Source: Halomarina pelagica (lineage in GTDB: Archaea > Halobacteriota > Halobacteria > Halobacteriales > Haloarculaceae). From it: a stretch of 64,000 bases of DNA. Below the pieces are notes generated by a model. The model saw only the letters and a program-made list of their open reading frames with translations. It searched no databases and was not told where the DNA came from. The DNA is taken from assembly GCF_024228315.1 (NCBI RefSeq), contig NZ_CP100454.1:3348001-3412000 (forward strand), in the 5' to 3' direction. The stretch's first letter is position 1. Each line of letters begins with the position of its first letter. The position numbers were made by a program, and so were the translations under genes. Below are positions 3,203-38,978 of the stretch, one piece after another.

Positions 3203-3616
3203 ATGGAGGCGACCGAACTCGTCGAGCGCGCCCGCGAAGCCCTCGCGGCCGCCTACGTTCCGTACTCCGAGTACCGCGTCGGCGCGGCGCTCGAGACCGC
3301 CGACGGCACCGTCTACACCGGCTGTAACGTCGAGAACGCCAACTACTCGAACTCGCTACACGCCGAGGAGGTCGCCGTCGCGGAGGCGGTCAAGAACGGC
3401 CACGCCGAGTTCGCGCGTATCGCCGTCTCCTCGGGCGCGCGCGACGGCGTCACCCCCTGTGGGATGTGTCGCCAGACGCTCGCCGAGTTCAGCGAGGACG
3501 ACCTCCCGGTATTCTGTGACGAGGGCGACTCGATCCGCGAGTACGCGCTCGGCGACCTCCTCCCGAACACGATCTCGCTCGACACGCTGGAGGCCGCCCG
3601 TGGGCGGCGCTCGTAG
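3203..3616 (+). CDS. cdd: Cytidine deaminase
   Basis: This 137-residue enzyme hydrolyses cytidine or deoxycytidine to uridine or deoxyuridine plus ammonia. The zinc site is complete: HAEEVAVAEAV near residue 53 gives one ligand plus the catalytic glutamate, and PCGMCRQTLAEF near 87 gives the two cysteines. Length matches the small tetrameric class. Start ATG at 3203 gives the expected N-terminus (about 15 residues before YSEYRVGAAL). It lies between the nucleoside transporter genes and uridine phosphorylase, so imported cytidine would pass to uridine and then to uracil. A TATA-like box sits 32 nt upstream. Confidence 0.95.
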   Translation: MEATELVERAREALAAAYVPYSEYRVGAALETADGTVYTGCNVENANYSNSLHAEEVAVAEAVKNGHAEFARIAVSSGARDGVTPCGMCRQTLAEFSEDDLPVFCDEGDSIREYALGDLLPNTISLDTLEAARGRRS

Positions 3617-3630
3617 CGCGTAACCCACCT

Positions 3631-3640
3631 GCTATTTGTT
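3631..3640 (+). promoter_or_regulatory. TATA-like promoter box of udp
   Basis: The box GCTATTTGTT lies 31 nt before the udp ATG and matches the cdd box in 9 of 10 positions at the same spacing. Confidence 0.5.
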
Positions 3641-3661
3641 CGCCGACGAGGAACGTCGCGC

Positions 3662-4468
3662 ATGAGCGACGCAGACGACGTGCAGTACCACATCGAGGCT
3701 GGACCGGGCGACGTCGCCGAGACGGTGCTCCTGCCGGGCGACACCGAGCGCGTGGACAAGATCGTCGCCGGCTGGGACGCCGCCGAGGAGGTCGCCTCAC
3801 ACCGCGAGTACCGCACCGTCACCGGCGAGTACGAGGGGACGCCGATCTCCGTCACGTCGACGGGGATCGGCAGTCCGTCGGCGGCCATCGCCGTCGAGGA
3901 ACTCGCGGCGGTCGGCGCGACCACCTTCGTCAGGGTCGGTTCCTGCGGCGCGATCCAGCCGGAGATGGCGATCGGCGACCTCGTCATCTCCTCCGGCGGC
4001 GTCCGGCAGGAGGGGACGAGCGCGGCGTACGTCCGCGAGACGTACCCCGCGGTCGCGGACCAGGAGGTCGTGACGGCGCTCGTCGCGGCCGCCGAACGCC
4101 TCGGCTACGACTACCACGTCGGCCTCACCGCCTCGACGGACTCCTTCTACGCGGGACAGGGTCGCCCCGGTTTCGGGGGATACGTCTCCCGGGCGGGGAC
4201 GGATCTGTTCGAGGAACTGCGCGACGCGAACGTGAAGAACTTCGAGATGGAGGCGAGCGCCATCTTCACGCTCGCGAACGTCTACGGCCTGCGCGCGGGG
4301 GCCGTGTGTACGGTCTACGCTAACCGCACCACCGGCGAGTTCCGCGTCGAGGGCGAGAACCGGGCCGCCGAGACCGCCTCCCTCGCGGTCCACCTTCTCG
4401 CGCGGATGGACGCCGTCAAGGCCGAGGCCGGGGCCGACCGCTGGCACGCCGGGCTCTCGCTTGAGTGA
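3662..4468 (+). CDS. udp: Uridine phosphorylase (nucleoside phosphorylase family)
   Basis: This 268-residue protein of the PNP/UDP family 1 splits a nucleoside with phosphate into base and ribose-1-phosphate. Seen motifs are PGDTERVDKI near the start (phosphate loop), TGIGSPSAAIAVEEL near 62, VRVGSCGA near 92 and NFEMEASAIFTLANVYG near 195, where the M-E pair binds the ribose. The family fit is to uridine phosphorylase, and the neighbouring cytidine deaminase supports a pyrimidine substrate; a purine nucleoside substrate cannot be excluded by eye. It has its own promoter, matching that of cdd. Confidence 0.88.
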   Translation: MSDADDVQYHIEAGPGDVAETVLLPGDTERVDKIVAGWDAAEEVASHREYRTVTGEYEGTPISVTSTGIGSPSAAIAVEELAAVGATTFVRVGSCGAIQPEMAIGDLVISSGGVRQEGTSAAYVRETYPAVADQEVVTALVAAAERLGYDYHVGLTASTDSFYAGQGRPGFGGYVSRAGTDLFEELRDANVKNFEMEASAIFTLANVYGLRAGAVCTVYANRTTGEFRVEGENRAAETASLAVHLLARMDAVKAEAGADRWHAGLSLE

Positions 4469-4515
4469 ACGGCTCGTCGACAGACCTTTGGCACTCGTCG
4501 CCGCACCACACGGCG

Positions 4516-4941
4516 ATGACCGAACTGCGCCGTACCGCGTGGGGGATGGCCGAGGAGGCGGAGCGGAACGTAGAGCGCCTCTCGATCGAGGAGGTCCTCG
4601 GGACGTACGACGACGAGGACGTGACGCTCGTCGACGTCCGCGACGTGCGCGAGCTGTGGCTCGAGGGGACGATACCGGGCGCGAAGCACGCGCCGCGCGG
4701 GATGCTCGAGTTCTGGGCGGACCCGGAGACGAAGTACTACCGCGATTACTTCGACCCGGGGCGGCGCTACGTGCTGTTCTGTAACGAGGCGGGCCGGTCG
4801 GCGCTCGCCGCCGCGCGGTTACGCGAGATGGGCTTCGAGGACGTGGCACACCTCGGCGGCGGGTTCACCGCGTGGCAGGAGGCCGGATACCCGATCGAGG
4901 AGGTCGAGCAGCGCGACTACGAGAACCGGTCCGACGGGTAG
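4516..4941 (+). CDS. Rhodanese-like domain protein
   Basis: This single-domain rhodanese has 141 residues. The domain runs from about residue 20 to 132, with the substrate loop CNEAGRSA carrying the catalytic cysteine near residue 88 and LGGGFTAWQEAGYPI closing the fold. Proteins of this kind transfer sulfane sulfur, but the acceptor here is unknown. ATG 4516 is preferred over a GTG at 4465 that overlaps the udp stop, because it gives the usual short N-terminus. It is followed by more than 1.2 kb without a gene. Confidence 0.85.
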   Translation: MTELRRTAWGMAEEAERNVERLSIEEVLGTYDDEDVTLVDVRDVRELWLEGTIPGAKHAPRGMLEFWADPETKYYRDYFDPGRRYVLFCNEAGRSALAAARLREMGFEDVAHLGGGFTAWQEAGYPIEEVEQRDYENRSDG

Positions 4942-6147: not shown

Positions 6148-7326
6148 CTACATATCCGGCCACGCCTTCGCGGCGCGACCGGGACCCGAGACGCGGTTGA
6201 TCCAGCGCGAGGCGACCGACTTCTTGAGCGCCTCGGCGGGGAACCCGCCGAACAGCTTTACGGGGAGCGAGAAGCCGTTAGCGGGTTTGACGCCGTAGGC
6301 GACGGCCTCGTCGCCGACCGAGATGAGCGTCCCCTTGTCGACGTGCTCCCACTGCTTGAGCGGCTGGCCGTTCACGGCGCGCTTTACGTTCTCGCCGACG
6401 ACCTCGGCGGCCTGCCAGGCCGCCTGTGCGGTGGGCGGGGCGGGTTCGCCGTCGAGCTGTTCGACGAGCGCGGTGTCGCCGAGCGCAAAGACGCGCTCGT
6501 CGCTCGTCTGGAACGTCGAGCGGGTAGTGAAGCGGTGGCTGCGCTCGTCCTGTTCGACGTCGACGTTCTCCGCGACCTCCCGGCCCGTGATCCCGCCGGT
6601 CCAGAGGAGGACGTCGTACTCGAGTTCGGTGTCGTCGCCGATGTAGACGGTGTCGTCGTCGACCTCGCCGATGAACTCGCCGGTCATGATGTTGACGTCG
6701 CGCTCGCGGAGCATCTCGTCGAGCTTCTCCTGTAGTTCGGGCGCGCCGGGCGGGAAGACGTTGTCGAGCCCCTCGACGAGGTGGATGTCGATGGGCGCGC
6801 GGTGCTTGTCGCGGAACTCGGCGATCTCGCCGGCGCTCTGAATGCCGGAGAGGCCCGCGCCGCCGACGACGACCTGGGCGCGGTCGCTGCGCGAGGCCTC
6901 GCGGGCGGCCCGCTTGACGGCGTCGTGGATCTCGAGCGCGTCGTCGAGCGACTTGAGGGTCAGGGCGTGCTCCTGTAACCCCTCGATGCCGAAGAAGGCG
7001 GTTCGCGAGCCGATGGCGACCACGCAGTAGTCGTAGTTGACGGTCGTTCCGTCGTCGAGTTCGATCTCGCGGTCGTCGGTCTCGAGGCCGGTGACCGCGG
7101 CCTGGATGAACCGGGTGGAGGGGGCCTTGATCTCCTCGACGGGGAGGGCGATCTTCTCCTTGACCGCGGGGGTACGGATGACGCGGTGGGCCTCGTGGAG
7201 CACCAGGTGGTGGTCCACGTCGGAGATCCACGTCAGGTCGACTCGATCACCGAGGTTCTCTTCGATACTCTTGACCGCGCCGGCCCCGGCGTACCCGGAA
7301 CCGAGGACGACGACGTTTTCCGTCAT
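6148..7326 (-). CDS. Type II NADH dehydrogenase / FAD-dependent pyridine nucleotide-disulphide oxidoreductase
   Basis: This 392-residue flavoprotein passes electrons from NADH to quinone at the membrane without pumping protons (family knowledge). An FAD-binding GSGYAGAGA motif is near residue 8. A second Rossmann motif, GGAGLSGIQSAGE, lies near 157 for NADH, and VFALGDTALV near 292 is the C-terminal FAD motif. The C-terminal 70 residues contain an amphipathic stretch that could anchor it. I chose ATG at 7326 over GTG at 7332 because MTENVVVLGSG places the first strand at once. It stands alone between a repeat-rich gap and an HTH gene. A sulphide:quinone oxidoreductase is less likely, since the expected redox cysteines are absent. 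Confidence 0.82.
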   Translation of the reverse strand: MTENVVVLGSGYAGAGAVKSIEENLGDRVDLTWISDVDHHLVLHEAHRVIRTPAVKEKIALPVEEIKAPSTRFIQAAVTGLETDDREIELDDGTTVNYDYCVVAIGSRTAFFGIEGLQEHALTLKSLDDALEIHDAVKRAAREASRSDRAQVVVGGAGLSGIQSAGEIAEFRDKHRAPIDIHLVEGLDNVFPPGAPELQEKLDEMLRERDVNIMTGEFIGEVDDDTVYIGDDTELEYDVLLWTGGITGREVAENVDVEQDERSHRFTTRSTFQTSDERVFALGDTALVEQLDGEPAPPTAQAAWQAAEVVGENVKRAVNGQPLKQWEHVDKGTLISVGDEAVAYGVKPANGFSLPVKLFGGFPAEALKKSVASRWINRVSGPGRAAKAWPDM

Positions 7327-7478
7327 GTCCACCTCTGCAACCCCCTCGGATACAAAGGCTTTGGAACGGTCGTGAGCGTCCGTATCGTGGCATTTTATCG
7401 CAAATCGACGGTGTGATCGATCGATCCGGAGCCGGCGACAGAGCGGGCGAGAACAGAGGCGTTACGGAGCCGCGCGGA

Positions 7479-8018
7479 TCAGTGCTCGGGCGCTTCCTCG
7501 CCGGAGGGCGCTTCCATGCCCGTCGTCGAGACGATGAGGACGTTGTTCGTGTCGTCCTTCCCGTCGAGGACGCCCTCGATGCGGAGCTTCGAGCGGGGGG
7601 TCGGACCGACGACGACGGTGTCGCCCTCGTGGAAGTCTTTGATGGAGCCGTGCAGGCGGATCTCGGCGCGACAGAGTTCGGGGTGGTGGACGCTCGTCAG
7701 GTCGATCTCCTGGACGTTCGCGTCCGGGACGCGCTCGCCGTTGTGGTAGAAGGGGACGTCCGCCGGTTCGTCGAGCTGTTCGAGTTCGAGCGCCTCGTAG
7801 GCGGTCGCGGTCGGTTTGTACCCCCCTTTCGGTCCCGGGACGCCCTCGACCAGCTGGAGCGCCTTGAGGCTCTGCATCTGGTTGCGGATGGTGCCCGGGT
7901 TGCGGTCTACCTTCGCCGCGATGTCCTCGCCCTTTACCGCCCGCTCCGAGACCCCATAGAGGTTGATGAGTTCCTGGAGGATCTCACGCTGGCTCGAGGT
8001 GAGTTCGATTGATGACAT
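7479..8018 (-). CDS. Winged-helix transcriptional regulator with C-terminal sensor-like domain
   Basis: The protein has 179 residues. Residues 1-65 form an HTH (SSQREILQELINLYG, then AAKVDRNPGTIRNQMQSL as recognition helix), with GPKGGYKPT as a wing. This is an arrangement known in Rrf2-like haloarchaeal regulators. Residues 85-165 form a beta-rich domain with HHPELCRAEIRLHGSIKDF and a short GDTVVVGPTPRSKLRIEG segment, which could bind a small ligand; the ligand is unknown. The tail is acidic. It is transcribed alone, divergent from the epimerase gene, and a TATA-rich region separates the two starts, so it may regulate both (inference). Confidence 0.65.
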   Translation of the reverse strand: MSSIELTSSQREILQELINLYGVSERAVKGEDIAAKVDRNPGTIRNQMQSLKALQLVEGVPGPKGGYKPTATAYEALELEQLDEPADVPFYHNGERVPDANVQEIDLTSVHHPELCRAEIRLHGSIKDFHEGDTVVVGPTPRSKLRIEGVLDGKDDTNNVLIVSTTGMEAPSGEEAPEH

Positions 8019-8108
8019 GGCTTATCATTTGAAACTACCCGCAATAAGTCCGACGGTGAGTCGGGGCGAGGCGGTATCGCTTAGTATCCCGCCCCTGGGA
8101 GAGTGAGT

Positions 8109-9023
8109 ATGGAAGGCAAACGAGTCCTCGTGACGGGCGGTGCCGGATTCATCGGGTCGAACCTCGCCAACCACCTCGCGGCGTCGAACGACGTCGTCGC
8201 CGTGGACGACCTCTACCTCGGCACGCCCGACAACCTCGACGACGCCGTGACGTTCGTCGAGGCGAGCGTCCTCGACGACGACCTCCCCACCGACGTGGAC
8301 GTCGTGTTTCACCTCGCCGCCCTCTCCTCGTACAAGATGCACGAGGAGAACCCCCGCGTCGGCGCGCGGGTGAACGTCGAGGGGTTCGTCAACACCGTCG
8401 ATCAGGCCCGTCACGACGGCTGTGACACGGTCGTCTACGCCTCCACCTCCTCCATCTACGGCTCGCGCACCGAACCCTCGCCGGAGTCGATGCCCGTCGA
8501 GGCCCGCACGGGCTACGAGGCGTCGAAGCTCGCCCGCGAACGCTACGGCGAGTACTTCTACAACCACTACGACGTGCGCTGTGCCGGCCTCCGCTTTTTC
8601 TCCGTCTACCAGGGGTTCGAGGGCGGCAACGAGGAGCACAAGGGCGAGTACGCCAACACGGTCGCCCAGTTCACCCACCAGATCGCGAACGGCGAGCGGC
8701 CCGTCCTCTTCGGCGACGGCTCGCAGACCCGCGACTTCACCCACGTCGACGACGTCGTCCGCGGCATCGAACTCGCCGCCGACCACCGCCTCCAGGGGGT
8801 CTACAACCTGGGGACCGGCGAGAGCTACTCGTTCAACGAGATGATCGACATGATCAACGCCGAACTCGGCACCGACGTCGAGCCGGAGTACGTCGAGAAC
8901 CCCCTGCCGGTGTACGTCCACGACACGATGGCCGATCCCACGAAGATGCGGGAGGCGACCGGGTGGGAGCCGCGGGTCGACTTCGAGGAGGGCGTCGCCC
9001 GGGTCTGCGCCCCCTACCGGTGA
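8109..9023 (+). CDS. NAD-dependent epimerase/dehydratase (nucleotide-sugar type)
   Basis: This is a 304-residue extended short-chain dehydrogenase. GGAGFIGSNL near residue 10 is the NAD-binding glycine motif. VVYASTSSIYG near 112 and YEASK near 140 supply the catalytic S/T, Y and K. FGDGSQTRDFTHVDDVVRGI near 205 is the sugar-nucleotide segment seen in UDP-glucose 4-epimerases and related enzymes. Length and motifs fit a UDP-sugar epimerase, but the exact sugar cannot be told. ATG 8109 is preferred over GTG 8103. No glycosyltransferase is adjacent. Confidence 0.85.
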   Translation: MEGKRVLVTGGAGFIGSNLANHLAASNDVVAVDDLYLGTPDNLDDAVTFVEASVLDDDLPTDVDVVFHLAALSSYKMHEENPRVGARVNVEGFVNTVDQARHDGCDTVVYASTSSIYGSRTEPSPESMPVEARTGYEASKLARERYGEYFYNHYDVRCAGLRFFSVYQGFEGGNEEHKGEYANTVAQFTHQIANGERPVLFGDGSQTRDFTHVDDVVRGIELAADHRLQGVYNLGTGESYSFNEMIDMINAELGTDVEPEYVENPLPVYVHDTMADPTKMREATGWEPRVDFEEGVARVCAPYR

Positions 9024-9029
9024 CCGCGC

Positions 9030-10319
9030 CTACTCCGACCGAAGGCGGTCCGTGAACCGGACGTCGACGACGACCGGGCGTCCCGTCCGCTCCTCGATCG
9101 CCCGGTCGAGGGCGTCCGCCAACCGGGGGTACGACTCGCCCGCGGGACGCGCGACCGTCACCGAGACCGTCGGCCGCTGGCCGAAGTACGCGACCGAACT
9201 GATCTCCGTCCGCACGCCCGTGATCTCCAGTCGCCGGTACTCCGGGCCCTCGATCACCGCGGCCACCCCCTCGTTCACGTCGTTGTTGTACGCGACCTGC
9301 TCTGCGACCAGGCCGCCGGCGAGCGCGAACGTCGCGAGGAGGACGAGCAGCGCGCCGACGAGCGAGACGTACTGCCGGGCGGAGCGGCCGCCGTCGCCGT
9401 CGACCCAGCCGTCGGGGCGGTAGCCGAGGTACCAGAGGACGAGAAAGCCCGCCAGGTTCACCGTGACGGCGTTGACCACGAGCAGGAGGAGCGCGCCGAT
9501 CGCGACCGAGGGGAGCCCCCAGGCGACGCCGATGCCGACCGCCGCCGCGGCGGGGATGAGCGCCGCCGCGATCATCACGCCCACGAGCGAGACGGGGAGC
9601 GCGGTGGCGAGCCCGAACGCCCCCGCCCCGCCCGCGCAGACCGCGACCGACAGCGAGAGCAGTCCCGGCGAGATGCGCTTCGAGATCTGGTTCACCGTGG
9701 AGACGTCGAGGACGGCGGTGACGAACCCGCCGGTCTTGAGCGCGTAGCCGAACGCGAGGGCGGCGACGACCGCGAGGCCGAGACCGAGCGCCTGGGACTT
9801 CAACCCCAGCCACGTCATCCGGCGGTCGTCGAGCGCCATGCCGACGCTCGCGGTCATCGCCGATCCCACCTGCGGCGCGATGACCATCGCGCCCACCACG
9901 ACCGCGGGCGAGTCGAGCAGGAGGCCCGCGGCGGCGACGATGGCGCTGAACACCGTCATCGAGTAGTAGGTGAGCGCGTTGCGGTGCATGTCGAGGGCCT
10001 TCGCGCGGATCTCCTCGGTCGCGACGGCGTCGTCCTCCTCGACGCCCGCGACGAAGCGGTCCTCGAGTTCCTCGAAGTGGGTGGTCTTCGCCGTCTCGGC
10101 GCTGGCGATGACGGTGTACTGCCCGTCGTCGAACCCGGCCTCGCGGAGTTCCCCCAGGACGAACTCCACCGCCTGCGTCGGGAGCGGGAACTCGAGCAGC
10201 GCCGTCTCGCCGTCCGCGCTGGCGTCGCGCGTGAGCACGAAGTCCACGTTCTCCCCCTCCAGAACGGACACCGCCTCGTCGCACCTGGTCCGCGGGACGA
10301 CCAGCTTTATCAGCCGCAT
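9030..10319 (-). CDS. DUF389 / TIGR00341 family membrane protein
   Basis: The protein has 429 residues. The first 110 residues are soluble (MRLIKLVVPRTRCDEAVSVL). From about 125 to 330 there are some seven membrane segments, including VVVGAMVIAPQVGSAMTASVG, the conserved core of this family. A periplasmic C-terminal domain follows (about 330-429). The function of the family is not established; a role in transport has been suggested for some members. I chose the ATG at 10319 although the frame is open further upstream, because the preceding residues are low-complexity and overlap the divergent arginase start. The stop codon lies just 7 nt after that of the convergent epimerase gene. Confidence 0.8.
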   Translation of the reverse strand: MRLIKLVVPRTRCDEAVSVLEGENVDFVLTRDASADGETALLEFPLPTQAVEFVLGELREAGFDDGQYTVIASAETAKTTHFEELEDRFVAGVEEDDAVATEEIRAKALDMHRNALTYYSMTVFSAIVAAAGLLLDSPAVVVGAMVIAPQVGSAMTASVGMALDDRRMTWLGLKSQALGLGLAVVAALAFGYALKTGGFVTAVLDVSTVNQISKRISPGLLSLSVAVCAGGAGAFGLATALPVSLVGVMIAAALIPAAAAVGIGVAWGLPSVAIGALLLLVVNAVTVNLAGFLVLWYLGYRPDGWVDGDGGRSARQYVSLVGALLVLLATFALAGGLVAEQVAYNNDVNEGVAAVIEGPEYRRLEITGVRTEISSVAYFGQRPTVSVTVARPAGESYPRLADALDRAIEERTGRPVVVDVRFTDRLRSE

Positions 10320-11544: not shown

Positions 11545-12192
11545 ATGACCGATCGCCGGACCGTGCGGGAGACCTACGACCGCATCGCGTCGCACTTCGC
11601 GCAGACCCGCGAGTACGCCTGGCCCGAGGTCGAGGCGTTCGTCGAGGGGGCGGAGGACGCGGGGACCGCGCTCGACCTGGGGTGCGGGAACGGGCGGCAC
11701 GCGGAACTGCTCGCGGAGCGCGCGACGCGCGTCGTCGGCGTGGACCTGAGTCGCGGCGCGCTGGCGACCGCGCGCGACCGGGCGGCGGCCCGGGACTTCG
11801 CGCTCCACCTCGTGCAGGGCGACGCGTCGACCCTCCCGCTCCGGACCGACGGCGTCGACCTGGCGGTGTACGTCGCGGCGTTGCACCACCTGCCGTCGAG
11901 GGCGCTCCGCCGGGCCAGCCTCGACGACCTCGCGCGCGTGCTCGCGCCCGGCGCGCGAGCGCTCGTGAGCGTCTGGAGCGTCACGCACTCCGCGTTCGAC
12001 GCGACGGAGGGGTTCGACACGACGGTCGGCTGGACGCTCCCCGACGGCGAGGTGGTCGAGCGATACTACCACGTCTACGACCCGGCGGAGTTCGAGCGGG
12101 ACGTGCGCGAGAGCGCGCTCGCCGTCGAACGGTGCTACGAGAGCGAGGGGAACTGCTACGCCGTCGTCGCCGGTCCCCGCCACCGACCGTAA
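11545..12192 (+). CDS. Class I SAM methyltransferase resembling Trm9/ALKBH8 tRNA methyltransferases
   Basis: The protein has 215 residues. SAM-binding motif I is LDLGCGNGRHAELL near residue 43, with VVGVDLS after it. The diagnostic features are YDRIASHFAQTR followed by WPEV at the N-terminus, ALHHLPSRALRRASLDDLARVL with SVWS in the middle, and VVERYYHVYDPAEF then CYESEGNCYAVV at the end. This set matches the eukaryotic wobble-uridine methyltransferases Trm9 and ALKBH8, which methylate carboxymethyluridine. A tRNA role is inferred only from this resemblance. It is monocistronic and 211 nt precede the next gene. Confidence 0.8.
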   Translation: MTDRRTVRETYDRIASHFAQTREYAWPEVEAFVEGAEDAGTALDLGCGNGRHAELLAERATRVVGVDLSRGALATARDRAAARDFALHLVQGDASTLPLRTDGVDLAVYVAALHHLPSRALRRASLDDLARVLAPGARALVSVWSVTHSAFDATEGFDTTVGWTLPDGEVVERYYHVYDPAEFERDVRESALAVERCYESEGNCYAVVAGPRHRP

Positions 12193-12403
12193 CGGACGGA
12201 TCGCGTTCGCGACCGTGTTCCCCGGTCGGTCGTTCAGGCGTCCGAGGTCACCGTCGCCGAACCGGAATCCGTGCTATCGACGGTATAGACAGGTCGTACA
12301 CCGCGATACTCACCGGACGAGAGGGAGGATCACACCCTACTTATCAATCAGGCAGGGGCAGGCAGAAGTGGAACCTTCGATCCTACGCTGTGTTCGAACA
12401 CCC

Positions 12404-12769
12404 ATGGCAGACCCGCTTGCCCACATCGATCCGCCGCCGGGGTGGATGAGTGAGGCAGACCCGCACGGGGAACGGCTCCGTTTCCGTCACGAGACGGAGC
12501 CGGTCGTCGTCACCGTGGAGCGCTGTCGTGCCGACCACCACGTCCTCGGAGAGGCCGACATGTGGAAGGGCACGGTGGAGCACGGTTTCCCCGACATGCG
12601 GAACACGACGACGTTCTGTACCGCGCCGACGATCGACCGGGTGCTCGAGCGCCTCCCGCTGGTGTTCCGGCAGTTCGACGGCCAGGGAGCGATGGCGAGC
12701 GTCCCGTCCGGTCGGCGTCCGATCCGCACGGGCCGTCCGTCGTCCCGCTGGATCGGGATGGAGCACTGA
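12404..12769 (+). CDS. Hypothetical protein at head of trehalose operon
   Basis: This is a 121-residue protein I do not recognise. It has an acidic first half (PHGERLRFRHETEPVVVTVERCRADHH has an alternating strand pattern). A basic C-terminal 25 residues (SVPSGRRPIRTGRPSSRW) is unusual for a halophile. There is no signal peptide or membrane segment. ATG 12404 is taken as start; the open frame extends upstream without good codons. It ends 13 nt before otsA and so probably heads that operon. Confidence 0.6.
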   Translation: MADPLAHIDPPPGWMSEADPHGERLRFRHETEPVVVTVERCRADHHVLGEADMWKGTVEHGFPDMRNTTTFCTAPTIDRVLERLPLVFRQFDGQGAMASVPSGRRPIRTGRPSSRWIGMEH

Positions 12770-12782
12770 GGCCGCGAGAGCG

Positions 12783-14333
12783 ATGCAGGTACCTGATACC
12801 GACACCGCAGAGGAGCCGAACAGCGCGACGACCGACTCGCTCGACGGGGTGAACCTCGTGGTGGTGTCGAACCGACAGCCGTACCGCCACGAGTTCGACC
12901 CCGACTCCGATCGACGCGACGTCGTGGTCGAGCGACCCACCGGCGGGCTGACCGCCGGGCTCGACCCCGTCATGCAATCCACGGAGGGGACGTGGGTCGC
13001 GTGGGGGGACGGCGAGGCCGACCCCGAGGTCGCAGACGAGGACGACTGCGTCGTCGTCCCGCCCGAGGATCCCTCCTACACGCTTCGACGGATCTGGCTC
13101 GACGACGAGGCCGTCGACGAGTACTACTACGGGTACAGCAACCGCGGCCTCTGGCCGCTGTGTCACTCCGCGCTCACGAAGGCCCGCTTCTCTGAGCGCT
13201 TCTGGGACACCTACGGCGCGGTGAACGAGCGCTTCGCCGACGCGGTCGCAGAACAGTGCGGCGAGGAGCGATCGTGGGTCTGGTTCCACGACTACCACCT
13301 GGCGCTCGCGCCGCGGCTGCTCCGCGACCGCGGTCGGTCCGAGGCGGTACTCGCGCACTTCTGGCACATCCCCTGGCCGGGCGCGGACGTGTTCGAGGCC
13401 TGCCCCCAGCGCCGGGACCTGCTCGACGGACTGCTGGCGAACGACCTCGTCGGCTTCCACGTCGACCGATACGTCGAGAACTTCCTCGACAGCGTCGAGG
13501 AGTTGCTGGAGGACGCCGCCGTCGACCGGGAGACCGGCGCGGTTCACTACGACGGCCGCCGGACGCTCGTCCGGTCGTTCCCGATGGGCGTCGACGCGGA
13601 ACGCATCGACCGTCAAAGCGCCTCCGAGGAGGCGACGAACTTCTGGTGGGAGTTCGCCGGCGAGCACGACCTCGTCACTCCCGAGCGACAGCTCGTCCTC
13701 GGCGTGGATCGCCTCGACTACGCGAAGGGCATCCTCGAGCGCTTCGACGCGCTGGAACGGCTCTGGGAGGACCACCCGGAGTGGCGCGGTCGGTTCACCT
13801 ACGTCCAGAAGGGAACCGAGACGCGCACCGGCATCCGGGACTACCAGGAGTACCAGGAGCGGATCGAGGAGGCCGTCGAGCGACTGAACGGACGGTTCGG
13901 GACCGACGACTGGCGACCGGTCGTCTCGCTCTCCGAGCGACTCTCCGAGGAGGCCCTCGCCGGTCTCTACCGGAACGCGGACGTCGCGCTCGTGAGTTCC
14001 ATCCGCGACGGCATGAACCTCGTCGCCAAGGAGTACGTCGCGGCGCAGCACGACCTCGACGGCGTGCTCGTCCTCAGTCGCCACGCGGGGGCGCACGACG
14101 AACCGACGTTCGCCGAGAACGCCCTCACCACGGACCCGCTCGACACGGACGAGTTCGCGGAGTCGATCAGGACGGCGCTGACGCTCGCGCCGACCGACCG
14201 CCGTCGGCGGATGACCCGCCTCCGCCGACACGTCCGGGAGTACGACCTGTCGTGGTGGATGGACGCCGTCTTCGAGACGATGAACGAGATCGAGTCGGAA
14301 TCGCGCCTCGCCTCCGCCTTCGATGATGACTGA
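12783..14333 (+). CDS. otsA: Trehalose-6-phosphate synthase
   Basis: This 516-residue glycosyltransferase of family 20 joins UDP-glucose and glucose-6-phosphate to trehalose-6-phosphate. LVVVSNRQPYRHEF near residue 23 and PTGGLTAGLDPVM near 50 are the N-terminal donor/acceptor motifs. WFHDYHLALAPRLLRDR near 165, HIPWPGADVFEACPQR near 195, GVDRLDYAKGILERF near 308 and SSIRDGMNLVAKEYVAAQ near 402 are all classical OtsA motifs. The start MQVPDTDT gives a short acidic leader. It overlaps otsB by 11 nt, so the two are co-translated. In haloarchaea trehalose and its sulphated form serve as compatible solutes. Confidence 0.93.
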   Translation: MQVPDTDTAEEPNSATTDSLDGVNLVVVSNRQPYRHEFDPDSDRRDVVVERPTGGLTAGLDPVMQSTEGTWVAWGDGEADPEVADEDDCVVVPPEDPSYTLRRIWLDDEAVDEYYYGYSNRGLWPLCHSALTKARFSERFWDTYGAVNERFADAVAEQCGEERSWVWFHDYHLALAPRLLRDRGRSEAVLAHFWHIPWPGADVFEACPQRRDLLDGLLANDLVGFHVDRYVENFLDSVEELLEDAAVDRETGAVHYDGRRTLVRSFPMGVDAERIDRQSASEEATNFWWEFAGEHDLVTPERQLVLGVDRLDYAKGILERFDALERLWEDHPEWRGRFTYVQKGTETRTGIRDYQEYQERIEEAVERLNGRFGTDDWRPVVSLSERLSEEALAGLYRNADVALVSSIRDGMNLVAKEYVAAQHDLDGVLVLSRHAGAHDEPTFAENALTTDPLDTDEFAESIRTALTLAPTDRRRRMTRLRRHVREYDLSWWMDAVFETMNEIESESRLASAFDDD

Positions 14334-36099: not shown

Positions 36100-36462
36100 T
36101 CAGCCCTGGACCGCGACCTGGGTCTGGCTGGACGACTGCGACTGCTCGACGTCGTTGTCCTCACCGAACTGGAGCGCGGCCTGGTACTGCTCGCTGTTCT
36201 GGTACTGGTTGATCTCGTTGTCCTCGCCGTCCTGCTCCGCGTACTGGAACTGGTAGTTGTCCTGATCCTGGTCGGCGTAGTTGTCCTCGCCGAACTGGAG
36301 TGCAGCCTGATACTGCTCGTTGTTCTGCCACTGGTTGATCTCGTTGTCTTCCGCACCGTCCTTTTCGTAGTCGCCGTTCGCCGAGACGGCGCCCACACCG
36401 CCGAGCGCGATCAGGGCGACTACGGCGAGGATGACGAGCCGTCGAGAGTTGTTTCCGAACAT
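36100..36462 (-). CDS. Secreted acidic protein with curlin-like repeats
   Basis: The protein has 120 residues. Residues 1-29 form a signal peptide: NNSRRLVILAVVALIALGGV, with twin arginines, cut probably near VSANG. The mature part is rich in E, D, N and Q. It holds two nearly identical units, NEINQWQNNEQYQAALQFG and NEINQYQNSEQYQAALQFG, each followed by EDN. The end reads SQSSSQTQVAVQG. The pattern Q-x-A-x-x-Q-x-G-x-x-N resembles the curlin repeats of CsgA/CsgB amyloid fibres. No chaperone or CsgG-like gene is adjacent. The paralogue at 37315-37803 shares signal peptide, promoter and C-terminus. Confidence 0.72.
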   Translation of the reverse strand: MFGNNSRRLVILAVVALIALGGVGAVSANGDYEKDGAEDNEINQWQNNEQYQAALQFGEDNYADQDQDNYQFQYAEQDGEDNEINQYQNSEQYQAALQFGEDNDVEQSQSSSQTQVAVQG

Positions 36463-36516
36463 GGTTATTCTTCTCTGCCGACGCCCTGCTGACGCCGACG
36501 TCAAGGTGGTTGCCCG

Positions 36517-36532
36517 GTTCCGTATTTGTTAT
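36517..36532 (-). promoter_or_regulatory. Shared promoter element upstream of acidic curlin-like gene
   Basis: The 16-base box ATAACAAATACGGAAC on the minus strand ends 55 nt before the ATG. It is identical to the box at 37865-37880 before the lysine-rich paralogue. It covers a TATA-like part (AACAAATA), so the two genes are probably co-regulated. Confidence 0.6.
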
Positions 36533-37002
36533 ACACATCGACATGTTATCCGGTGCACAAAAAGCCACGACGAGCGTAGGGTCTCGGTACAGCGGACGAC
36601 GAGCGGCGTGACACCGGAGTGAACGATTCCGATACCGAGACCGCCACGGATCACGTATCACTATCGCTACCTATCTACGTCGGCGTTGTACGCCTGTTCT
36701 GGACTGTTTATGTGGGACTCACAGGTGTTGGGTACGATTAAACCGTTACGTGACACCGGGATTGCACCACATCCGACAGGAACGCCCACCGTACTCTCGT
36801 CGCGGCGTCTCAGTCACAGCCGACTGACTCCGGACGCGTTCGCCGGATTCGTCCGAGATTGAACGGGGAGTCGATCCCCCGGTTACTCGCACTAATGTCA
36901 GCACACTATCAACGACGCGCCGCCTCTCGCCTCTCCCCTGGACGCCGGTCGAAGACCTCCCACGGCCTCGGTCGATCATCATTTTTTGAGGCCAAAACAG
37001 TC
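36533..37002. other. Gap between the curlin-like gene and small ORF
   Basis: No protein with convincing codon use is seen. There is a stretch of AT-rich sequence (36530-36560 and 36690-36740). Confidence 0.35.
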
Positions 37003-37167
37003 ATGGGTGAATCTGACGTACTACCGCTAATGACGCGAACAGTACGATCGGCCACCTCCCCTCGGATGCCGGACTTCGGCGAGATGCGCCGGGCGATCCG
37101 AGCGCTCTCGGACGTGAGCGATGTCCAGCGGGCGCTCGACGCCGTCTCCCCGATGTACGACGAGTGA
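37003..37167 (+). CDS. Possible small protein, unknown
   Basis: The 54-residue ORF starts MGESDVLPLMTRTVRS and ends with a helix-like RRAIRALSDVSDVQRALDAV and SPMYDE. Codon third positions are GC-rich, as in real genes here, and an AT-rich ATTTTTTGAGG lies 20 nt upstream. There is no family to compare. It could equally be spurious. Confidence 0.35.
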   Translation: MGESDVLPLMTRTVRSATSPRMPDFGEMRRAIRALSDVSDVQRALDAVSPMYDE

Positions 37168-37314
37168 GTCGACCGACTCGATCCCCGTGACGTCGAAACG
37201 ACCCTCTGATCCCCTCGCTCCTCCACGGCTTACTGGGGACTAGCGCTAGCGACGGCCGTACCGCCCGCCGGCAGTGTCGGAAAAAGATCTACGTCGCTGG
37301 ACGATGCGAAGCCG

Positions 37315-37803
37315 TCAGCCCTGGACCGCGACCTGGGTCTGGCTGGACGACTGCGACTGCTGGACGTTGTTGCCGCTACCGCCCTGAACCGCGAACTGCT
37401 TCTGGACGTTCTTCTGGCGCTGATCGATCTTGTTGTCGTGGCCGCCCTGGAGCGCGACCTGCGTCTGCTTGTTCTCCTGGCGCTGATCGATCTTGTTGTG
37501 CTTGCCGAACTGGGCGGCGAACTGCTTCTGGACGTTCTTCTGGCGTTGCTTGATCTTGTTCTTGACGTGCTTCTTCGGGGGCTTCTTCTTCGCGTGCTTC
37601 TTGTGCGGCTTCTTCTTGTGATCCTTCTTGGGGGCCTTCTTCTTCTTATCTTTCTTGTGGTCTTTCTTGTAGTCCTTCTTGTGGTCCTTCTTGTGGTCCT
37701 TCGCGTAGTCGCCACCGTGCGCCGCGGCCATGCCCGCGCTCGAGAACGCGAACATGACGACGACGGCGAGAATGACGAGTCGCCGGGAGTTTTTGCCGAA
37801 CAT
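37315..37803 (-). CDS. Secreted lysine-rich protein with curlin-like repeats
   Basis: The protein has 162 residues. The signal peptide is KNSRRLVILAVVVMFAFSSA with cleavage near MAAAHG. Residues 33-85 are a lysine/histidine/aspartate run of KDHKKD and KKPHKKHAK units. Residues 86-162 hold repeats NKIDQRQENKQTQVALQGG and NKIDQRQKNVQKQFAVQGG with the curlin-like pattern. The end SQSSSQTQVAVQG equals that of the acidic paralogue, and the 47 coding bases of that end are the same in both genes. A chain this basic is striking in a halophile, whose proteins are usually acidic. Its charge would favour binding to acidic partners such as the paralogue or DNA (inference). Confidence 0.72.
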   Translation of the reverse strand: MFGKNSRRLVILAVVVMFAFSSAGMAAAHGGDYAKDHKKDHKKDYKKDHKKDKKKKAPKKDHKKKPHKKHAKKKPPKKHVKNKIKQRQKNVQKQFAAQFGKHNKIDQRQENKQTQVALQGGHDNKIDQRQKNVQKQFAVQGGSGNNVQQSQSSSQTQVAVQG

Positions 37804-37864
37804 GGTTAGTTTGTCTCTGTTGTCGTCGACGTCTCCGAGACACCGACGTAGATGGCGTCGCCGC

Positions 37865-37880
37865 GTTCCGTATTTGTTAT
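37865..37880 (-). promoter_or_regulatory. Shared promoter element upstream of lysine-rich curlin-like gene
   Basis: It is the identical 16-base box ATAACAAATACGGAAC found before the acidic paralogue, here ending 62 nt before the ATG. Confidence 0.6.
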
Positions 37881-38387: not shown

Positions 38388-38978
38388 CTAGACTCCCTCG
38401 CTGAGCGTCTCGTAGCGCGTCTCGAATCGCTCGGCGCAGGACGAACAGCAGAAGTGGTACGATTGCTCGTCGAAGGTCTCCGAGACGCCCTCGCTGGTGA
38501 CCGTGTTGCCGCACTCCGCACACGACGGGGCGAACTCCGCCGCGCCGATGCCGGGCGACCACGACTGCCCGGTGAGCAGGCGCACGTCGAGGTCCTCCAC
38601 GACGTCGAACGACACGGTGTCCTCGAGGAACGACCGCGCGTCGCCGTCGGGGATGCGGACGGTGAAGACGAGTCGCCCCTCCGCGGTGGTGAAGACGTGC
38701 TCGACGGACTCCGAGGCGGAGAGGGACGCGCGCGTCGACTCGACGGCGTTCTGTGCCACCTCGAGGTCGACGAGGACGGCCACGCCGTCCCGGAGTCGGG
38801 AGCGATCGAGATCGGCGGTGATGCGCCTGATGATCCCGAGGTCGCGGAGGCGCTGGATCCGGTCGGAGACGGCGGGGGGAGAGAGGTCGACCTCCTCGGC
38901 GATGTCGCTGTACGGTCGCCGCCCGTCCTCGACCAGCAGACGAAGTATCGTCCGATCGGTGTCGTCGAGATCCGACAT
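38388..38978 (-). CDS. AsnC-family regulator with C-terminal TRASH metal domain
   Basis: The protein has 196 residues. The AsnC HTH spans 1-55 (LDDTDRTILRLLVEDGRRPY; SDIAEEVDLSPPAVSDRIQ). A ligand-like domain follows, and then a TRASH domain near 150-185 (CAECGNTV, FDEQSYHFCCSSCAERFE) whose cysteines bind metal. Such AsnC-TRASH proteins respond to copper or other metals in archaea. No P-type ATPase is nearby. ATG 38978 gives the standard N-terminus MSDLDDTDR. Confidence 0.85.
   Translation of the reverse strand: MSDLDDTDRTILRLLVEDGRRPYSDIAEEVDLSPPAVSDRIQRLRDLGIIRRITADLDRSRLRDGVAVLVDLEVAQNAVESTRASLSASESVEHVFTTAEGRLVFTVRIPDGDARSFLEDTVSFDVVEDLDVRLLTGQSWSPGIGAAEFAPSCAECGNTVTSEGVSETFDEQSYHFCCSSCAERFETRYETLSEGV

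Follow-up and report, generated by a model that had tools for sequence, protein, structure and literature searches.

Small, probably secreted proteins with curlin-like 21-residue repeats in Halomarina pelagica: possible subunits of a haloarchaeal surface fibre

Two neighbouring genes in the window (the whole stretch of 64,000 nucleotides of Halomarina pelagica DNA that was analysed) encode an acidic and a basic small protein, each built mainly of curlin-like tandem repeats of 21 residues. As can be read from the sequences, both proteins carry signal-peptide-like N-termini, keep their repeats in one register with uncharged inner and charged outer positions, share an upstream box and a C-terminus that is homogenised within the genome, and co-occur with long paralogues. 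Our tentative reading, which we rate at slightly less than an even chance, is that the pair represents the secreted small subunits of a CsgG-independent, curli-like surface fibre of haloarchaea. The pair belongs to a larger haloarchaeal protein set, apparently undescribed so far. Curli are the amyloid fibres of bacterial biofilms and among the best-studied functional amyloids; the literature treats them as a bacterial system linked to secretion through the outer membrane.

The original prediction had placed two paralogous genes on the minus strand of the window, and both open reading frames were found at these positions, with further paralogues in the same genome. The features of the pair are as follows (window positions, with the basis in brackets).

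36100..36462, minus strand: small curlin-like repeat protein, acidic, 120 aa, with signal peptide (sequence; syntenic orthologue in Halomarina halobia)
37315..37803, minus strand: small curlin-like repeat protein, basic, 162 aa, with signal peptide (sequence)
36379..36462, minus strand: predicted signal peptide of the acidic protein, MFGNNSRRLVILAVVALIALGGVGAVSA (sequence; by comparison, the RR motif is not kept in relatives)
37720..37803, minus strand: predicted signal peptide of the basic protein, MFGKNSRRLVILAVVVMFAFSSAGMAAA (sequence)
37567..37719, minus strand: N-terminal Lys/His/Asp-rich tail of the basic protein, KDHKK type, 51 residues, net +18, 8 His (sequence)
36103..36360, minus strand: four curlin-like 21-residue repeats and terminal QG of the acidic protein (sequence)
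37318..37563, minus strand: four curlin-like 21-residue repeats and terminal QG of the basic protein (sequence)
36103..36144, minus strand: C-terminal 14 residues of the acidic protein, common to the basic protein and the third paralogue, with nearly identical DNA, homogenised within the genome (sequence comparison)
37318..37359, minus strand: C-terminal 14 residues of the basic protein, the same as in the acidic protein (sequence comparison)
36517..36532, minus strand: box upstream of the acidic gene, ATAACAAATACGGAAC, a probable promoter or activator site (sequence comparison)
37865..37880, minus strand: box upstream of the basic gene, ATAACAAATACGGAAC (sequence comparison)
36540..36549, minus strand: second, upstream half-box of the acidic gene, ATAACATGTC, present in most Halomarina relatives and absent from the basic gene (sequence comparison)

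The opposite charge of the two mature chains, claimed from the start, was borne out by calculation, with net charges of −21 and +28 and pI values of about 4 for the acidic and 10.4 for the basic protein. Of the basic protein's positive charge, about two thirds (+18) reside in the tail and the remaining +10 in the repeats. The space between the two genes holds a short ORF in divergent orientation, about 54 codons long (37004-37167, plus strand); a stretch overlapping it is about 77% identical in Halomarina halobia, and it may encode a conserved small protein. An Lrp/AsnC-like regulator gene adjoins the pair (38388-38978, minus strand); we rejected it as a dedicated regulator, as it is found in all eight Halomarina genomes, with or without the pair.

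The strongest repeat period below 31 residues is 21 in all 17 Halomarina members of the family. Identity at lag 21 amounts to 0.44 for the acidic protein and 0.56 for the repeats of the basic protein, compared with at most 0.24 in 2000 shuffles, and the repeats of the small proteins fit rows of 21 without insertions. The consensus drawn from the 17 Halomarina members is Q1-x-G3-x-x-N6-x-(Q/I/A)8-x-Q10-x-Q12-x-x-x-Q16-x-Q18-x-(A/Q)20-x; each window protein has four repeats and the longest relatives have over 30. Charged residues account for 0-6% at the even positions 6-20 of the small proteins and for 42-67% at the odd positions 7-21, a count in which some positions had served to select the repeats and positions 8, 10, 14, 18 and 20 had not. 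Uncharged and charged residues alternate without a break over positions 6-22, position 14 included, which requires no second arc. The curlin-like repeats of Q-x-A-x-x-Q-x-G-x-x-N type originally predicted are a strict 21-residue repeat, curlin-like in residue order and not in composition alone. In many family members a super-period of 42 residues is stronger than that of 21.

In its published form the curlin kernel reads N-$-psi-$-psi-$-Q-X-G-X-X-N-$-psi-$-psi-$-Q-X-G-X-X, and the repeats average 23 ± 5 residues; curlin is described as a two-strand solenoid, and curlin-like proteins with fully hydrophilic cores occur outside Csg operons (PMC10192328). The curlin family is delimited by repeats of about this length in at least four copies per protein, and the window proteins have four of 21 residues. 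After comparison with the kernel, the XGXX arc and the N...Q spacing of motif b were found to be exact, the first N to be replaced by Gln, and the psi positions to be mostly Gln or Ala. The second arc has 3 residues here against 4-5 in curlin, and the inner positions are mostly Gln. A search with the Pfam curlin profile (PF07012) had been proposed with the original prediction, a negative outcome being named as a refutation; it gave no significant match for either window protein, and none in the window genome, the long relatives or the Halogranum relatives, a curlin of another haloarchaeal genus (L096, see below) scoring 152.8 bits as positive control. Scans of the pair with Pfam and NCBIfam returned only meaningless weak matches, and no family was assigned.

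In a permutation test, the 21 columns were reordered identically in every repeat before alignment to solved curli subunits, a procedure that controls for both composition and periodicity. With the Pontibacter subunit 8c50 as target, the acidic protein scored 103 for a permuted mean of 53 (z 4.8, p 0.0005; above 99.9% of 2000 permutations), the paralogue on contig 2 gave z 6.1 and the basic protein p 0.02, values of p that are slightly optimistic since 8c50 was picked after it had surfaced in a PDB search. Against E. coli CsgA, p was 0.007 for the acidic protein, 0.015 for the contig-2 paralogue and 0.009 for the basic protein. The s2 relative of Halomarina halobia fails both tests (p 0.27 against 8c50 and 0.73 against CsgA), and two Halomarina halobia relatives did no better than permuted controls against CsgA. 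For both window proteins, column permutation supports, as to residue order, the likeness to CsgA/CsgB repeats that had been claimed. A search of the PDB with the family profile yielded two matches only, the second of which was 8c50, not significant (E 3.3); the best, a C-type lectin neck repeat (E 0.008), was rejected, its best single stretch being insignificant. Vipp1 and epsin, from a PDB search with the acidic protein as query, were likewise rejected (E above 0.05), and a PDB search with profile A4 of the small proteins found nothing.

Proteins with Pfam-type curlin repeats were detected in four genomes of another haloarchaeal genus (L096:5052-5789, minus strand; L097:4885-5508, plus; L098:4841-5521, minus; L099:4876-5499, plus). 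These have a signal-peptide-like N-terminus, 207-245 aa and 19-residue repeats, NDADVDQRNKAGVFQDGKN, in which the second arc is a single residue. L096, the one scanned of the four, matches PF07012 with E 2e-45 in ten stretches and Pontibacter 8c50 with E 2e-16. They resemble the window family in being archaeal, in their N-terminus and in tandem N-D-A-D-V-D-Q-R-N...Q-D-G-K-N repeats, and a Halogranum rubrum relative of the window proteins aligns with L096 over 169 residues at 44% identity (permutation z 8.9). They differ from it in the 19-residue repeat, in hydrophobic A/V core positions, in a single copy per genome and in the strong PF07012 match. The profile of the small proteins matched these archaeal curlins with a probability of 93%, a kind of score that is inflated for repetitive and biased sequences. 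Taken together, the sequence comparisons suggest that the 21-residue repeat works in the manner of curlin and is probably related to it; by the Pfam test it is not a member.

A third small paralogue was found on contig 2 after a search of the window genome, together with three long Gln-rich paralogues clustered 78 kb from the pair, B1, B2 and B3 (462, about 550 and about 335 aa), the first having a hydrophobic segment at its N-terminus. Within the genus, three of the eight Halomarina genomes are carriers (the window species, Halomarina halobia and genome G005); each has both small genes and the long cluster, which in Halomarina halobia and G005 occupy the chromosomal places they have in the window species, and the other five genomes have neither. 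In one fragmentary genome (G003), in which both flanking genes can be read together, nothing Gln-rich lies between them, and in three other Halomarina genomes examined there is no Gln-rich ORF near the Lrp/AsnC-like regulator gene. More distant relatives occur in Halogranum rubrum and Halogranum amylolyticum, and three further genera, two of them in the family of Halogranum, have long relatives only, the small ones being absent. Seven of 391 genomes were positive in a class-wide sample at E 1e-5 and three of 146 in a family-wide sample at E 1e-6; in a phylum-wide sample, neither further genera with the 21-residue family nor PF07012 matches turned up. The contig scan gave no relatives with a single protein as query, and Halomarina halobia plus the two Halogranum species with a profile; viral contigs contained no relatives. 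The distribution is thus patchy. Paired occurrence, by which the original prediction was to be judged, was found in part: several small paralogues, the box and C-termini alike within each genome recur in five genomes of two genera, but the pairing of acidic with basic is not kept. What is conserved, judging from the sequences, is the presence of several small paralogues per genome with a common box and a C-terminus specific to the genome. Two genomes from different families encode long Gln-rich repeat proteins convergently to a secY-like gene beside ribosomal-protein-like genes (L092:6245-10751 with 11755-13224; L095:6024-9317 with 3203-4690), which hints at an old shared location.

The 16-base promoter box common to the two genes, as claimed from the start, is indeed the longest word that their upstream regions share: ATAACAAATACGGAAC starts 70 and 77 bases before the ATGs, while in shuffled upstream pairs the longest common word has at most 14 bases (mean 8.6). 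Allowing one mismatch, the 15-base box pattern occurs only at these two genes in the whole 4.6-Mb genome, and the TAACAAATAC box, or its Halogranum form TAACTAA, stands upstream of all 13 aligned small genes from five genomes and two genera. The B2 and B3 genes carry an upstream element of their own in three Halomarina species, CTATAATAAAG or close to it, followed by a TGTG-type sequence (L019:4662-6050, 6462-8126 and 8646-9662; L023; L024).

The C-terminus of the pair had been described as identical over 13 residues; the identity stands, and its true length is 14 residues, QSQSSSQTQVAVQG. Over the last 48 bases, identity reaches 0.96-0.98 between the window genome's three small paralogues, the one on the other contig included, and 0.98 between the two genes of the Halomarina halobia pair, but across the genomes of the window species, Halomarina halobia and G005 it is only 0.56-0.69. 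For the signal peptide of the acidic gene, DNA identity is 0.89 with the Halomarina halobia orthologue and 0.74 with its own neighbour. Because the C-termini are alike within a genome and divergent between genomes, while orthologous signal peptides are closer across species, gene conversion is suggested as the source of this homogenisation. Alike C-termini would be expected if all small subunits present the same end; they can also be of neutral origin.

These observations bear on a different and rather unlikely explanation, in which the proteins are secreted beta-repeat proteins that do not polymerise, a soluble or S-layer-associated solenoid or sheet serving as adhesin or spacer, and resemble curlin by convergence on a Gln/Asn ladder. 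It would account for the silence of the Pfam curlin model on the family, for a core made mostly of Gln rather than small hydrophobics, and for the moderate extent to which several members beat their permuted controls. Chains of only four or five repeats, paralogues that share box and terminal repeat, and the co-occurring long paralogues fit a common assembly better.

Structure prediction gave two low-confidence models, both made from few input sequences, which disagree on the fold. Model 1 of AlphaFold, for the acidic protein, is a meander whose four strands, each 16-17 residues long, are joined by turns at the XGXX loops (pLDDT 63, pTM 0.36); model 2, for a nine-repeat Halogranum protein with more aligned rows, is a solenoid with two strands per repeat and arcs near XGXX and positions 13-17 (pLDDT 56, pTM 0.52). 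Structural matches of model 2 were other beta-solenoids and, weakly, FapC (Z 2.9); curli chains were not among them, which we did not count as evidence against a curli fold. Long-hairpin pore proteins, matched by model 1 in Foldseek with E above 0.005, were not accepted as relatives, the model being poor. Taken at face value, model 1 would mean an antiparallel beta-meander, in which each repeat is one 17-residue strand plus an XGXX hairpin turn and a Gln-faced sheet pairs with another in a cross-beta arrangement of non-curli topology. The unbroken charge alternation from position 6 to 22 and the single-residue second arc of the related 19-residue repeats agree with such a meander, but the low confidence of model 1, the two strands per repeat of the better-supplied model 2 and the description of curlin as a two-strand solenoid (PMC10192328) make it improbable.

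The original prediction took the opposite charges of the pair as a sign that the two chains assemble together. Opposite charge does not hold as a rule, and we rejected it as the organising principle: the sign differs in two of five genomes, the window species and Halogranum rubrum (+7/−34), and elsewhere the mature chains are acidic or near neutral, with net charges of −9/−4 in Halomarina halobia, −103/−2/−1 in G005, and about 0, −8 and a negative value in Halogranum amylolyticum, one of whose genes is partly masked. Behind the signal peptide, a Lys/His/Asp-rich stretch is a recurrent feature of the family, of considerable length in the basic protein and in one protein of Halogranum amylolyticum. 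The latter (L102:7392-8330, plus strand; part masked in the record) has a long His/Lys/Asp tail of KHHDKHHD type, which by its sequence looks like a metal- or polyanion-binding extension. A disordered matrix, in which the mutual attraction of acidic and basic chains, or their attraction to extracellular DNA, gives a hydrated coacervate or gel with weak, unspecific Gln contacts, would suit the charges of −21 and +28, the 51-residue tail and the opposite signs in Halogranum rubrum, but is highly improbable given the lack of opposite sign in three of five genomes, the strict insertion-free register with nearly charge-free inner positions, which favours an ordered fold, and the high salt of such organisms, at which simple charge attraction is strongly screened.

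Twin arginines, from which export by the Tat pathway had been proposed, are present in both window signal peptides, but most relatives do not have them. The SRRLVI-type motif is found in the window pair, the third paralogue and Halomarina halobia; at this site G005 has SRKLLA and KTRLLL, and Halogranum has GRQ, ARQ and GKQ. Tat export as a family trait was rejected on this lack of conservation. Because the twin arginines are replaced in relatives and the segment that follows is strongly hydrophobic, Sec is the more likely route. That no CsgG-like exporter is encoded nearby holds more widely: CsgG (PF03783) is absent from four carrier genomes, the control search finding PF03783 in E. coli. Archaea have a single membrane and no outer membrane, and therefore a CsgG-type pore would not be needed.

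For the curli-like fibre, which we continue to favour, we infer the following course. Each chain would be exported, most likely unfolded via Sec, and its 21-residue repeats would then adopt the form of a narrow cross-beta solenoid or sheet, the uncharged Gln/Asn/Ala face turned inwards and the charged face outwards. The chains would then stack end to end, with one another and with the long repeat proteins B1-B3, and B1, by its membrane-anchor-like hydrophobic N-terminal segment, could hold or nucleate the fibre. Through their common upstream box the small subunits would be expressed together. Their C-terminal repeat, specific to each genome, probably serves as a docking cap whose likeness among subunits would be maintained by gene conversion, and the Lys/His/Asp tail of the basic subunit would lie outside the core, where it could bind acidic partners, DNA or metal.

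More doubtful is the wider proposal that haloarchaea possess a curli-type fibre system of their own, made of 21-residue Gln-ladder subunits, small and co-regulated as well as long and membrane-anchored, which operates without Csg export machinery in molar salt. If this is true, the curlin repeat would be a fibre module common to two domains of life. An archaeal curlin-like set would show whether a curlin fold can do without CsgG for its secretion and assembly, would supply amyloid designs functional in molar salt, and would offer a candidate gene basis for the amyloid staining of haloarchaeal biofilms. The genes can be tested in named, cultivated species, namely Halomarina halobia, Halogranum rubrum and Halogranum amylolyticum.

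The statement that nothing of this kind had been described in archaea was nearly right, with one prior mention: a survey of 2012 reports one archaeal protein bearing curli-like repeats at regular spacing, and gives it no name in the passage concerned (PMC3521004). In the open-access literature, to which our search was directed, no paper on curlin in haloarchaea was found. Biofilms of Haloferax volcanii bind Congo red and thioflavin T, with no curli-like protein assigned (PMC4180959). That matrix resembles the proposed fibre in being haloarchaeal, extracellular and possibly amyloid, but members of the window family were not found in most haloarchaea sampled (7 of 391 genomes positive). The sheath protein of the archaeon Methanospirillum (PMC10593813) and FapC are comparable as extracellular cross-beta or amyloid-like assemblies, the fibre of the window family being a proposal from sequence; the architecture is different and no sequence relationship was seen. 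The closest comparison is with CsgA and CsgB of curli (PF07012), including R15.5 of Pontibacter korlensis (PDB 8c50). The window family differs from these in its repeat of 21 rather than about 23 residues, its shorter second arc and its inner positions of mostly Gln in place of small hydrophobics, as well as in being archaeal, with no N22-type secretion signal seen, no CsgG and no match to the Pfam curlin model. It agrees with them in consisting of small, apparently secreted tandem-repeat proteins with the Q-X-G-X-X-N arc and the N...Q spacing, in the alternation of inner and outer positions with charged or polar residues outside, and in having paralogues that vary in repeat number.
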